Below are positions 13,336-62,657 of a DNA stretch of 62,657 nucleotides, one piece after another. The stretch's first letter is position 1. Each line of letters begins with the position of its first letter. The notes beneath the pieces were generated by a model. That model was not told where the DNA came from, searched no databases, and saw only the letters and a program-made list of their open reading frames with translations. Origin of the DNA: Halobacteriales archaeon SW_7_65_23 (GTDB lineage Archaea > Halobacteriota > Halobacteria > Halobacteriales > Haloarculaceae); assembly GCA_003022725.1 (NCBI GenBank), contig PXSQ01000027.1, forward strand, positions 1-62,657, written 5' to 3'. A program made the position numbers and the translations under genes.

Positions 13336-15780
13336 TCAGGGCCCACGTTCGTCGGGATCGAGCCCGGACTGATTGACGGCGTAGATCGTCACCGCCTCGT
13401 TCTGGAAGGCGACCGAGAGGCCGCTGTACGCCCAGAACTCGCGGATGTCGTCGAACCGCTCTCGTTCACCCTCGCCGACGTAGATGTACTCGACGTCATG
13501 CGCGCGTAGCGTTCGAGTCGCGTTGGGCCAGGAACCGACGTAAATCTCCTCGACAGCGCTGGCCCGTCTGTCGTACACGTCCTGGCCGCGGTAGCCCGCC
13601 TGGTGGTTCCAGCCCGCGACTGTGACAGCGCCGGAGAACACGGACGCCGCGTTCTGCCACCGATAGTTGTACCGCGACGGTGCCTCGACGATTGTCGGCT
13701 GTCCTTGCTCGTCGAGCCAGTAGATCGCCGCCATCTCCTCGCTCTTCCAGCGGTCGTGTGGCGCGAGCCCGTCGATCGAGCCCTCCGTCGGCGCCTCCAG
13801 GTACCGTGTCGGCTCGCCATCGACGTTGCTGTTGGCCGTCAGCGCGGCGAAGGGGAGGCTGGTGACGACGACGGCGCTCACCAGCACCAGCGCGAGGACG
13901 GCGGGTCCAGCCGCTCGGATCTCCCGGAGGCGGTCGACGGCGTCGCTCACCAGCAGTGCGGCCGCGGCACCCCCGGCGGCGCCGGCGAGTGTCCACCCCT
14001 GGACGGCCACCTTCAGCGTCGTGTTCCACCGGATCCGGTCGGGCGGCCACACCTTCGCGTGGACGAGTTCGAGCGCGAGCAGGAGTCCGAGCCCGCCGAC
14101 GAGCAACACGGCCTCGAACCCGAGCCGGTCGGTCCGGACGAGCCACCACGCGACCAGCAGCAGGGGACCGACGGCCGCGAGCACGGCCGGCACAGCCGGG
14201 TGATCAATTGCCACCGGAACGACGACCAGGAAGAGGACGACACCACCGAGCGCGATGCGACTCCGCCGGTCCCTCGGGACACCCGCTTCGACGCTCCGTG
14301 AGAGCAACAGCGCGACGAAGAGGGCAAGCAGCCCGCCGTAGACGGCGAGAAACGGCCCCAGCTCGCTCTGCGGGGGGAACAGTCCGACGCCGTCGTTGGT
14401 CGGGACGCCCCCGAGCAGGAACGGCGACGCGACCAGGACGCCGATCAGGCCGACCGGAACCGCGAGAGCTGCGGCGAGGACGAGCCGCCACGCTTCGTCT
14501 GCGAGACGGCTGCTGGTGTCGCCGCTGCCGATCACGAACCGGGTGCCGTCGGGGAGTAGCGTCACCGGGTGCGAGCCGGCGGCGGCCATCGCCAGCCACG
14601 CCAGCCCCACGGCCGTCGGCAGCGACCAGGTGTTTATAAAGCCGAAGAGGCCGGCCACGAGGCCGAGCCCGCCGAACACGAGACTGCGCCGCCGCCAGCG
14701 GTCGCCGGCTGGCGTGTGGTAGTAGCTCAGCCCGACCGCCGCCGCGAGCAGGACGTACCCCGTCGAGAGGCCGTGGCCGTGGAGGTCCGCTTTGATGAAC
14801 GAGTACAGCGGGAACTCGTAGAGCCCACCCTCGATGACGTAGCGGGCGTTCCACCAGAACCACTCGCTGCCGGTCCCCTGCGTGGTGACGGCTTCCTGAA
14901 ACGTGTATCCGCGGTCGGCGACGAGCGCGCCGAACAGCGCGTCGCCGGTCTGCTCGCGGATCACGGCGGGGAAAAGCTCGTAGGCGAGCCGGAGGAACGC
15001 CGTCAGGAAGCCGGCGAGAGCGACGAACAACGCGCCGAACGCGCCCCCGAGGTGGTATACAGCCAGACGTGATTCAGTCAAGCCATGCCGTCCCGAATCC
15101 CGTTGTTCGGGCCGTGACACAGCCGATGGACTGTCCTGACACTGTACAGAGTCACGCCTGGCTGTATAGGAGCGGTCGCGCGCCGCGAGGATCGACCCGA
15201 CCAGCCCGTAGGCGGTCACGAACAGCACGCCGTAGAACGTCGACAGCGCCAGGAAGTAGCCGTACCGGAGCTCGATCCCCGACAGCAGTGACAGGGAGGC
15301 GACCTGGAGCTGGGTGCCGTAGTAGTAGCGGATCGGCTCGCCGGCCCACCAGAAGTCCTCCGGCGGGAGGGCATCGGCGCCCATCAGTGCGTTCGTCAGC
15401 CCGTAGTGGAGGAACTGCTCGCCGCCGGCCGGCGTGATGGCGGCGTTGAACGCCGAGTACAGCAGGTAGAACGCGAATCCGAGCAGGAAGACGCCCCCAC
15501 TGCCGGCGACGGCCCGCCAGTCCGGGTTGACGCCGCGGTAGAGGGCGAATCCAGCACACGCCCCGACGACGAGCACGCCGGCGACGACCGCGTGGCGGCC
15601 GTATGTCACCTGCCCGAGCCAGAACGTGACGACGGCGAGCACGACCAGCGCGACCGGGAGCGAAAACGCTGCACCGCGGCGCGGCAACGGCCGGAAGACC
15701 GTTGCTGCGATCGGCGCACCCAGCGCCGTGAGGAGGGCGAGGACTATCGACCACTGGAGGATGGGGGCCCACTCCATCAT
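13336..15780 (-). CDS. Large membrane protein, DUF2298-like, interrupted in frame by a family B element
   Basis: MMEWAPILQWSIVLALLTALGAPIAATVFRPLPRRG; many TM segments; continuous ORF through 15056-15168. Confidence 0.85.
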   Translation of the reverse strand: MMEWAPILQWSIVLALLTALGAPIAATVFRPLPRRGAAFSLPVALVVLAVVTFWLGQVTYGRHAVVAGVLVVGACAGFALYRGVNPDWRAVAGSGGVFLLGFAFYLLYSAFNAAITPAGGEQFLHYGLTNALMGADALPPEDFWWAGEPIRYYYGTQLQVASLSLLSGIELRYGYFLALSTFYGVLFVTAYGLVGSILAARDRSYTARRDSVQCQDSPSAVSRPEQRDSGRHGLTESRLAVYHLGGAFGALFVALAGFLTAFLRLAYELFPAVIREQTGDALFGALVADRGYTFQEAVTTQGTGSEWFWWNARYVIEGGLYEFPLYSFIKADLHGHGLSTGYVLLAAAVGLSYYHTPAGDRWRRRSLVFGGLGLVAGLFGFINTWSLPTAVGLAWLAMAAAGSHPVTLLPDGTRFVIGSGDTSSRLADEAWRLVLAAALAVPVGLIGVLVASPFLLGGVPTNDGVGLFPPQSELGPFLAVYGGLLALFVALLLSRSVEAGVPRDRRSRIALGGVVLFLVVVPVAIDHPAVPAVLAAVGPLLLVAWWLVRTDRLGFEAVLLVGGLGLLLALELVHAKVWPPDRIRWNTTLKVAVQGWTLAGAAGGAAAALLVSDAVDRLREIRAAGPAVLALVLVSAVVVTSLPFAALTANSNVDGEPTRYLEAPTEGSIDGLAPHDRWKSEEMAAIYWLDEQGQPTIVEAPSRYNYRWQNAASVFSGAVTVAGWNHQAGYRGQDVYDRRASAVEEIYVGSWPNATRTLRAHDVEYIYVGEGERERFDDIREFWAYSGLSVAFQNEAVTIYAVNQSGLDPDERGP
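15058..15166. mobile_element. Family B element (B1) inserted in frame in a coding sequence
   Basis: TA|TACAGCCAGACGTGATTCAG...AGTCACGCCTGGCTGTA|TA; 109 bp plus 2-bp TA duplication. Confidence 0.85.
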
Positions 15781-15827
15781 CGGAGACGGGTTTCCCGGCG
15801 AATAAGTGTCTTCTGACCTGACACTCC

Positions 15828-15883
15828 GGGTCGACCGCACGCAGTACCGCGGTCGATCCCGGAACGACTCACAATAATCACTA
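15828..15883. mobile_element. Family A short-variant fragment (A3, left end lost)
   Basis: CCGGGTCGACCGCACGCAGTACCGCGGTCGATCCCGGAACGACTCACAATAATCACTA identical to part of the copy at 24366-24445; followed by TCA. Confidence 0.8.
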
Positions 15884-17405
15884 TCACTGGTACCGACCGC
15901 GGCCCTCGATCTCGCGCAACTGGTTAAGCACCGCGCCGTCCCCGACCGTCCGGTAGGCGTCCTCGGCGGACCGCTGGAGGCGATCGGCGTCGTCGTCGGT
16001 CCCCGCGAGGCTCTGGGCGAGCACGCCGCGTCGTGGGATCGCCGTGGACGACGCCGGCGTCGTGGAGGCGCGCGAGGTGGCGGGCGACCGCCCGGACCCG
16101 GTCCGCGGTCAGCGCCTCGCGGAGGTCGCAGTCGCCGACGCGCTGGAGGGTGAGCGTGGTCTCCGCGACATCGACATCCCGGAGCAGCGGCGTCGGGACG
16201 CCGGCCCGGCGCGCCTCGCTGGTCAGGCGCGCCTCCTGGCGGGTACGCTCGCGCCGGAGCCGGTCGTCGAGTTTTGGGTGGCGATACGCGCGGGGCTGGC
16301 GGCACTTCACGACTTTGTCGTCGTCGATTGAAACCGTCGCCTCCGCCCCCTGCACGGTGTCGTTGTCGGCCGGACGGCCCACGGATTCGTCGTCATCCCG
16401 CCACGTGACCGGCACCTCGTCCGGCCGGAAGTCCGAGCCGATCCCCGACTGCTCGATCGAGAGCGTGTCGCCGGCGGCGTACATCTTCGCGCCGAGCACG
16501 GCGACCATGCCGGCATTATCCCGGAGAAATCGGCTCTCGGGGACGAAAAAGTCGGCGCCGCGCTGCTCGCACATCGAGGCGAGCATTGCCTGGAGGCGGT
16601 CGTTCTGGCCGACGCCGCCGCCCAGCACGAGTTCGTCGCTGCCGGTCAGCGACAGCGCGCGCTCCGAGACCTCCGTGAGCATCGCGAACACGTTCTCCTG
16701 GAGGCCACGGCAGACGTTCTCGACGGGTGAGAAGTCCATCCCCTTGACGACGTACGGCAGGTCGACGTACTCGCCGTCTCTGGCTGCCTGTTCGACTTTC
16801 GGGCCACCGGGGTGTGACCAGCCGACGTGTCGGGTGAACTTGTCGATCGCGTTGCCGACGCCGGTGTCCATCGTCTCGCCGAGCACGCGGTACCGGCCGG
16901 CGCGGTAGCCCAGCAGGTGGGCGTTCGCGCCGCTGGCGTTCAGACAGACCGGCGAGGAAAAGCCCGAGCGGTGGCGGCCGATCTCCAGGTGGGCGACCAT
17001 GTGGTTGACGCCCACCAGCGGGACGTCCAGTCGCTGGGCCAGTGCGCGGGCACTCGTCCCCGCGAGACGCAGACAGGGACCCAGTCCGGGGCCGCGAGAG
17101 AAGGCGACGGCATCAACAGGCGCAGCCTGTTGTCCCGACGAGCTTCGCTCGTCGACGTCGACCGGCGAGTCGCGGTCCCTGCCGTCAGTTTCGCGAGCCT
17201 GCGCCAGCACCCGCTCGATCACGGTTGGGAGGTGATCGGCCATGTGCTCGGCGGCCTCCCGTGGATGGATGCCGCCGCTGTCGGGCAGGTACGCTTCCGT
17301 TTCGATTGTGACGTCGTCGGTCACGCTGTCGTAGAGGGCGGCGCTGGCGGCCCACGCCGTTCCCTCGATCCCCAGCACGCGAACGTTACCGCGCTCTGTC
17401 GCCAT
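15884..17405 (-). CDS. kae1-bud32: Kae1-Bud32 fusion (KEOPS), Bud32 part frameshifted and internally deleted
   Basis: LGIEGTAWAASAALYD, VAFSRGPGLGPCLRLAGTSARALAQRLDVPLVGVNHMVAHLEIGRH; HDAGVVHGDPTTR, then C-terminus in another frame VLAQSLAGTDDDADRLQRSAEDAYRTVGDGAVLNQLREIEGRGRYQ*. Confidence 0.88.
17114..17154 (-). repeat. Paired perfect micro-hairpins inside kae1
   Basis: CAACAGGC-GCA-GCCTGTTG (17114-17132) and CGACGAGC-TTC-GCTCGTCG (17136-17154). Confidence 0.85.
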
Positions 17406-18066: not shown

Positions 18067-18171
18067 GTTGCTGTATCTTCCCGCCGAGTCGCCTAAAAGG
18101 ATTTCGAAGCGTCGAACGGCTAGGAACGGGTCACGGGCGAAGACGTGGCTGCCGTCGTGGTGCGAACTGCT

Positions 18172-18284
18172 ATACAGCCACCAGTATGACTCCGTACAGT
18201 GCCAGGACAGTCCATCGGCTGTGTCATGCCCCGAACAACGGGATTTGGGACGGCATGGCGTAACTGAATCACGTCTGGCTGTAT
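18172..18284. mobile_element. Family B element with hybrid B/D left end (B2)
   Basis: TATACAGCCACCAGTATGACTCCG... (D-like end) ...AATCACGTCTGGCTGTATAT (B end). Confidence 0.8.
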
Positions 18285-18394
18285 ATCGTGGTCGCTTACG
18301 TGTAACGTGACCGAGCAGTAACCGAGCAGTCACGGAGCGAGATTTACAGGACGAAACAGCGAACTTACAAGCCCCAGCGGCGTACGGGAGGGCA

Positions 18395-21179: not shown

Positions 21180-21458
21180 ATGAGCGAGCCAGTGACCGTC
21201 ACAGCCGGGGAGATCACGGCGGAGTACCGCGAGACCGACACCGAGCGCCAGCTCACCTTCTCCGCCGACGGCCGGACGGCGACTGTCGCCCAGAACGTGG
21301 AGGGGTATGCCATGCTAAAAGTCCGGGACGGCCCCGACGGCGACGAACTGGAGCGGTACTATGGGTTCGACATGGCGCTGGATCACGCCGCGGAGCTGCT
21401 GGGCGTCTCCCCGCAGGACCTGCCCGTTCCCAACCCCGCCGAGGATATGGGGATGTGA
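21180..21458 (+). CDS. Small conserved haloarchaeal protein, unknown function
   Basis: 93-codon ORF MSEPVTVTAGEITAEYRETDTERQLTFSADGRTATVAQNVEGYAMLKVRDG... Confidence 0.75.
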   Translation: MSEPVTVTAGEITAEYRETDTERQLTFSADGRTATVAQNVEGYAMLKVRDGPDGDELERYYGFDMALDHAAELLGVSPQDLPVPNPAEDMGM

Positions 21459-21653
21459 TACTGGTGGCTGTACGTACGTGAAAACTCGAACTGAGAATCC
21501 AGGCGGAACAGGTCTGTCTCCGCAGATAGACAGCCAGACGTGATTCAGGTACGCCATGCCGTCCCAACTCCCGTTGTTCGGGCCATGACACAGCCGATGG
21601 ACTGTCCTGGCACTGGACGGAGTCACGTCTGGCTGTCTAGCAGAGACTGGTGA
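21459..21653. mobile_element. Family D element (D2) carrying nested family B, right end interrupted by family C
   Basis: TGA|TACTGGTGGCTGTACGTACGTGAAAACTCGAACTGAGAATCC...GCAGATA[B4]TAGCAGAGACTGGTGA. Confidence 0.85.
21529..21637. mobile_element. Family B element nested in D2 (B4), 109 bp, TA duplication
   Basis: GCAGATA|GACAGCCAGACGTGATTC...GTCACGTCTGGCTGTC|TAGCAG; uninterrupted D reads GCAGATAGCAG. Confidence 0.92.
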
Positions 21654-21761
21654 TACTGTCGGACGTGACTCTGTGTCACATTGTGACACTCTCCTGGCTG
21701 TATTCGCACGGTTGAACGGCTAAACGTGACGCGTGACTCCACGAAATTACGTCCGACAGTA
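21654..21761. mobile_element. Family C element (C1), 108 bp
   Basis: TACTGTCGGACGTGACTCTGTGTCACATTGTGACAC...CCACGAAATTACGTCCGACAGTA. Confidence 0.9.
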
Positions 21762-21855
21762 TCAGCGACCGCGACGCAACCTCGCCCTTTCAGTCCGCCA
21801 GGGGCGTTGATTGTGTCGCCTGCAGGATTGCGGTGGATTGCGGCCGGTCGCCGAC

Positions 21856-24365: not shown

Positions 24366-24445
24366 TAGTGATTATTGTGACTGTTTACCGGGTCGACCGC
24401 ACGCAGTACCGCGGTCGATCCCGGAACGACTCACAATAATCACTA
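24366..24445. mobile_element. Family A short variant (A4), 80 bp
   Basis: TGA|TAGTGATTATTGTGA...TCACAATAATCACTA|TGA with internal hairpin GGGTCGACCGC...GCGGTCGATCCC. Confidence 0.9.
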
Positions 24446-24487
24446 TGAGACACCAACAGTTATTAGAAACAAATCCAAGCTGTACGC

Positions 24488-34283: not shown

Positions 34284-34525
34284 TACTGGTGGCTGTAATT
34301 CTTTTCCTCACCAGTCTCTGCTAGACAGCTAGACGTGACTCCGTCCAGTGCCAGGACAGTCCATCGGCTGTGTCATGGCCCGAAAACGGGAGTTGGGACG
34401 GCATGGCGTACCTGAATCACGTCTGGCTGGCGTACCTGAATCACGTCTGGCTGTCTATCTGCGGAGACAGACCCGTTCCGCCTGGATTCTCAATTCGAGT
34501 TTTCACGTACGTACAGCCACCAGTA
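34284..34525. mobile_element. Family D element (D3) carrying nested family B, flanked by TGA/TGA
   Basis: TGA|TACTGGTGGCTGTAATTC...CTA[B5]TATCTGCGGAGACAG...GTACAGCCACCAGTA|TGA; about 108 bp without B. Confidence 0.95.
34324..34455. mobile_element. Family B element nested in D3 (B5) with 24-bp tandem duplication
   Basis: GACAGCTAGACGTGACTCC...GCGTACCTGAATCACGTCTGGCTG repeated twice...TC, flanked by TA. Confidence 0.9.
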
Positions 34526-34596
34526 TGAGCCCGGTGTCCTGCTGGTATCTGCTGTCCAGCGAAACCCATACGTCCGTGCGGGAGAATGTAGAACCG

Positions 34597-46363: not shown

Positions 46364-46392
46364 GATCCTACGAAGGAATTTATCTTCCGGTA

Positions 46393-46501
46393 TACAGCCA
46401 GACGTGACTCCGGACAGTGCCAGGACAGTCCATCGGCTGTGTCATGCCCTGAACAGCGGGATTTGGGTCGGCATGGCGTAACTGAATCACGTCTGGCTGT
46501 A
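46393..46501. mobile_element. Family B element (B3), 109 bp
   Basis: TA|TACAGCCAGACGTGACTCCGGACAGTGCCAGG...CTGAATCACGTCTGGCTGTA|TA. Confidence 0.93.
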
Positions 46502-46542
46502 TAGCTCGGTCGGTCAGCCGGTACGGGTGGGACTGAAAGGGG

Positions 46543-47628: not shown

Positions 47629-47711
47629 AAGTACGTGAAAACTCGAACTGAGAATCCAGGCGGAAAGAGTCTGTATCCGCAGATAGCAGGGACTGGTGAG
47701 TAAAGGAATTA
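47629..47711. mobile_element. Family D remnant (D5), both termini missing, abutting C2
   Basis: AAGTACGTGAAAACTCGAACTGAGAATCCAGGCGGAAAGAGTCTGTATCCGCAGATAGCAGGGACTGGTGAGTAAAGGAATTA. Confidence 0.82.
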
Positions 47712-47819
47712 TACTGTCGGACGTAATTTCGTGGAGTCACGCGTCACGTTCAGCCGTTCAACCGTGCGAATACAACCAGGAGAGTGTCACGACGTGACAC
47801 AGAGTTACGTCCGACAGTA
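47712..47819. mobile_element. Family C element (C2), 108 bp, inverted relative to C1/C3
   Basis: TACTGTCGGACGTAATTTCGTGGAGTCACG...CGACGTGACACAGAGTTACGTCCGACAGTA|TGA. Confidence 0.92.
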
Positions 47820-47831
47820 TGAGTATATCGT

Positions 47832-62489: not shown

Positions 62490-62559
62490 TGCACTCCTGT
62501 ACCCGTCCGGAGCGTAAAACAACGACGTTTCGAAACGACGCCGACGCGGCGACTCCTCA

Positions 62560-62657
62560 TACTGTCGGACGTAACTCTGTGTCACATCGTGACACTCTCC
62601 TGGCTGTATTCGCACGGGTGAACGGCTGAACGTGACACGTGACTCCACGAAATTACG
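62560..62657. mobile_element. Family C element (C3), cut by window end
   Basis: TCA|TACTGTCGGACGTAACTCTGTGTCACATCGTGACACTCTCCTGGCTGTATTCGCACGG...CACGAAATTACG; about 10 bp missing. Confidence 0.9.

Follow-up and report, generated by a model that had tools for sequence, protein, structure and literature searches.

We have found that a short palindromic element lies in frame within a membrane-protein gene of a haloarchaeon, to which it adds 37 codons. With a probability of roughly 0.85, we consider this element, which we refer to as B1, to be an ordinary haloarchaeal MITE/SMR-type element that entered the gene by one rare, ancestral, in-frame insertion and has been passively tolerated there. The window (the whole stretch of 62,657 nucleotides of Halobacteriales archaeon SW_7_65_23 that was analysed) carries the interrupted gene at 13336..15780 on the minus strand. 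Its product of 814 amino acids, read from MMEWAP, matches Pfam PF10060 (DUF2298) with an E value of 6.9e-109 and the NCBIfam domain TIGR03662 (Chlor_Arch_YYY) with an E value of 1.3e-122.

B1 occupies positions 15056..15168 (minus strand), a span of 113 bp that includes both TA copies and is delimited by the sequence, by six-frame analysis and by a gap in homologues. The 109-bp unit together with the 2-bp TA duplication amounts to a net 111 bp, or 37 codons (YTARRDSVQCQDSPSAVSRPEQRDSGRHGLTESRLAV), and the minus-strand reading frame runs continuously through it with no stop; the added residues follow RS in the host protein, start with Y, end with VY and are succeeded by HLGG. The ends of B1 (TATACAGCCAGRCGTGA) are inverted repeats, and nine such ends are present in the window against a chance expectation of 0.03. 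The terminal repeat at the 5' end on the gene strand reads TATACAGCCAGGCGTGA including the TA (15152..15168, minus strand), and that at the other end reads TATACAGCCAGACGTGA, again including the TA (15056..15072, plus strand). An earlier note had described a 109-bp element with its TA in a DUF2298-like gene, in frame, 37 codons long and without a stop, and both the open reading frame and the homologue gap agree with that description. We also note a repeated tail, ACTCACAAYAATCACTAT(CA), which occurs in the window at 15826-15884 and 24388-24446 and also at 48, 13262, 26393 and 43219; two of these copies, at 15826 and 24388, match at 100% identity over 59 bp, and the former sits just upstream of the DUF2298 start.

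Aligning the window's DUF2298 protein with those of relatives (26 sequences, 27 in all) places the insertion within a single lineage. A gap of exactly 37 residues falls between RS and HLGG in 24 of the 26 other homologues, and homologues L031 and L034 read RSYHLGG at this point, which corresponds to an empty site with a single TA. The other carriers of the insert are the two closest species, Halobacteriales archaea QS_4_66_20 and SW_10_66_29 (G008 and G011), so the lineage-specific insertion of 37 amino acids that the earlier note had expected from such an alignment is indeed found. In these species the insert (L038 and L039) has the same site, orientation and in-frame phase as B1 and is likewise stop-free; the two elements are 95-96% identical to B1, and the best other copies in the window's own genome reach 92%. 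We reject independent insertions in the three species because the elements share the same TA and the same orientation and are closest to each other. The simplest reading of these sequences, drawn from incomplete metagenome assemblies (the window's own genome is 79% complete), is that one insertion would have occurred in the common ancestor of the three species and been followed by vertical descent.

We propose that B1 would be a copy of a high-copy, non-autonomous palindromic element whose integration at TA duplicates this dinucleotide, and that one copy would have entered a loop-coding stretch of the gene in the common ancestor of the three haloarchaeal species. The gene would have stayed open because 109 + 2 bp make 37 codons and because the orientation and phase happened to be free of stops. 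The protein would thereby have gained a 37-residue loop, probably disordered, between two transmembrane helices; since then, the gene would have been held by selection, with the insert drifting in the manner of intergenic copies. We infer that the loop is translated and that it is neutral.

The AlphaFold model of the host protein, for which an alignment of 26 sequences served as input, has a mean pLDDT of 87.9 and a pTM of 0.92. Across most of the insert, pLDDT is 48-52, and confident helices flank it on both sides; in the model, the insert thus forms a loop of low confidence between two transmembrane helices, and these 37 residues are probably floppy or disordered. A structural comparison of the predicted fold with STT3/AglB oligosaccharyltransferases and AftA gives a probability of 1.0 but low TM-scores (mostly 0.31-0.40 among the leading hits), and we refer to the fold of the DUF2298/TIGR03662 proteins as GT-C-like on the basis of this prediction. 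Such a predicted fold suggests that these uncharacterised proteins might act as membrane glycosyltransferases.

The two parts of the gene, outside and within the insert, were compared for signs of selection. With the insert removed, pN/pS is 0.26 between the window species and the other two carriers and 0.19 between those two, which indicates purifying selection on the protein to either side of the insert. The insert itself has eight variable sites among the three sequences and a pN/pS of 0.36-0.70, each pairwise comparison yielding 2-2.5 synonymous and 2-4 nonsynonymous changes; these values below 1, resting on few changes, may reflect weak constraint. It is conceivable that the loop now serves the GT-C-like protein, for example by contributing to binding, regulation or stability, and that this benefit explains its retention, as might be suggested both by the pN/pS point estimates and by a frame that is intact in all three species despite a synonymous-site divergence of about 28% separating the window species from the other two. 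We nevertheless regard such a domestication as unlikely. The substitutions are few, and although the divergence of the insert (4-6 of 109 positions) lies below the synonymous divergence of the gene, we do not take this as a sign of coding constraint, since orthologous intergenic copies differ equally little (mostly at 2-11 of 109 positions). The insert shows no codon adaptation to the host gene (GC3 is 0.43 in the insert vs 0.89 in the gene), and the loop is modelled at low confidence. Retention of the frame also proves little, because in a neutral simulation nine random substitutions leave it open 68% of the time. Passive tolerance of the insert fits these data, which do not demand a function.

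B1 belongs to a family, element B, of which we located at least 197 copies in loci fetched from five genomes: 91 in the window's own genome (G000), 62 in G008, at least 41 in G011, two in G009 and one in G108. Counts of an internal motif over whole genomes gave 89 for G000 and 51 for G008, and among 400 genomes of the order that were searched, the ends of element B are numerous only in the window's clade. As is expected of a MITE, the element is 109 bp long, has inverted ends of about 15-17 bp and no coding content, and is accompanied by a target site duplication: the TA is duplicated, with the empty-site homologues implying a single TA, and 110 of the 159 copies that were located carry TA at both ends (as do 58 of the 74 full copies outside a second element, C). 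Besides B1, the window contains copies at 18171..18285 and 46391..46503 (both plus strand and scored non-genic), as well as two copies nested in element C, one at 21527..21639 on the minus strand (the left end of C being at 21458) and one of 108 bp at 34324..34431 on the plus strand. Many B copies, mainly in G000 and G011, occupy one TA of this outer element of about 110 bp, whose ends are ATACTGGTGGCTGTA, to give a composite of about 221 bp. Dozens of copies of the composite exist, among them those in the window at 21458-21640 and 34322-34526 and one (L315) in G108, which belongs to another family of the order. The arrangement is apparently an ancestral nesting that later spread as a unit.

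Two further observations concern sequences that resemble parts of element B. Solo ends (TACAGCCAGACGTGATTCACTC) that lack the rest of the element and are followed by unique sequence occur at L083, L162, L163, L172 and L174. A third short palindromic family, with ends GATACTGTCGGACGTGA, is present in the window at 21651-21764, 47711-47820 and 62546-62657; its ends resemble those of B in style (CGGACGTGA against CAGACGTGA), suggesting related transposases.

The earlier note had gone further and proposed that the size and sequence of the element may be tuned to tolerate coding insertion, and this the census contradicts. A codon-bias model, which detects just part of the true coding positions, classed 188 of the 197 located copies, and the only genic copies among them are the three DUF2298 orthologues, which count as one of the roughly 141 independent sites that could be tested (76 of them outside element C). 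The same classifier scored 40-43% of control TA sites as genic; for the 76 sites outside C, the probability of finding at most one genic is about 7e-16 at a genic rate of 0.4 and 6e-11 at a rate of 0.3. Three other loci were considered as genic copies and set aside. L124 lies between two genes, directly after a stop codon; L070 is also between two genes, the left one having a plausible start near the element; and L100 has a score of about 4 on both sides, below the threshold of the final census, and its reading hinges on an assumed duplication. The DUF2298 site alone is genic and the remaining copies that we checked are intergenic; element B therefore lives between genes, has entered a gene once and is not specialised for genic life.

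We have weighed these counts against the habitual in-frame insertion that is known from Rickettsia palindromic elements (RPE), families of which often lie in genes, nearly half of them in R. conorii (Ogata et al. 2000, 2002, via PMC10969869). A family of this kind, shaped for survival in coding sequence, might be expected to show the net length divisible by three that we see in 108 of 135 full copies and the elevated six-frame openness of the 109-bp copies (0.36 vs 0.26 in shuffled sequences). The copies are related, however, and not independent, and the consensus alone, with three of six frames open, gives P=0.25 against shuffles; together with the scarcity of genic sites, this makes so habitual a coding insertion extremely improbable. 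The statement in the earlier note that other copies are open in the frame equivalent to that of B1 is true of 50 of the 108 full 109-bp copies and fails for the rest. The likeness to RPE that it drew holds for the outcome, in that a palindromic element in frame has added a peptide of tens of residues, as is described for Rickettsia (PMC10969869), and in that the inserted orientation is stop-free in B1 and its two orthologues; it does not extend to a habit or a class, since genic in-frame insertion is not frequent in B.

B1 folds far better than shuffled sequences, both as DNA (z -4.6) and as RNA (z -5.0, with a predicted stem of -54 kcal/mol), and a hairpin of this strength in the middle of the mRNA could regulate how the downstream part is translated or degraded. 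We think a role of this sort very unlikely to account for the insert, as the palindrome is common to every copy by virtue of the inverted repeats, and there is no sign of a selected role at B1.

The nearest descriptions of element B are those of MITEs and of the short mobile repeats of Haloquadratum walsbyi. Like MITEs, element B is short and non-autonomous, has inverted repeats and a TA duplication, reaches high copy number and is mostly intergenic. A difference is that we found no autonomous element with matching ends: pairs of B ends were sought across some 1.3 Mb of loci from these incomplete genomes and enclosed no such element, and DDE_3 (PF13358) was absent from the three main genomes, also incomplete assemblies; the single DDE_3 found, in G009, lacks the ends of element B. 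Element B is presumably mobilised in trans by an unseen transposase. Type A short mobile repeats of H. walsbyi (SMR-A; HqIRS42, HqIRS43 and HqIRS55), compared here by description, are similarly about 110 bp long with prominent inverted terminal repeats and no transposase, are present in dozens of copies for which a matching transposon is not known, and are often nested in other mobile elements, as B is in element C (PMC3119063). The two differ in that SMR-A reportedly insert with no target duplication (PMC3119063), whereas B duplicates TA. SMR-A are also reported to target near-terminal PATE/IS605 palindromes (PMC3119063), and B may differ in this too, as many of its copies lie outside element C.

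The DUF2298 gene offers a clean case, spanning three species, in which an archaeal protein has incorporated a small mobile element and relatives preserve the empty site. The family as a whole provides a quantitative counter-example to design for coding insertion, as its survival is overwhelmingly intergenic, and the lone genic case combines a permissive loop with lucky length, phase and orientation. Were the insert to have been exapted in this clade as a functional loop of a GT-C-like glycosyltransferase, which we consider improbable, it would represent MITE-driven protein innovation in an archaeon.
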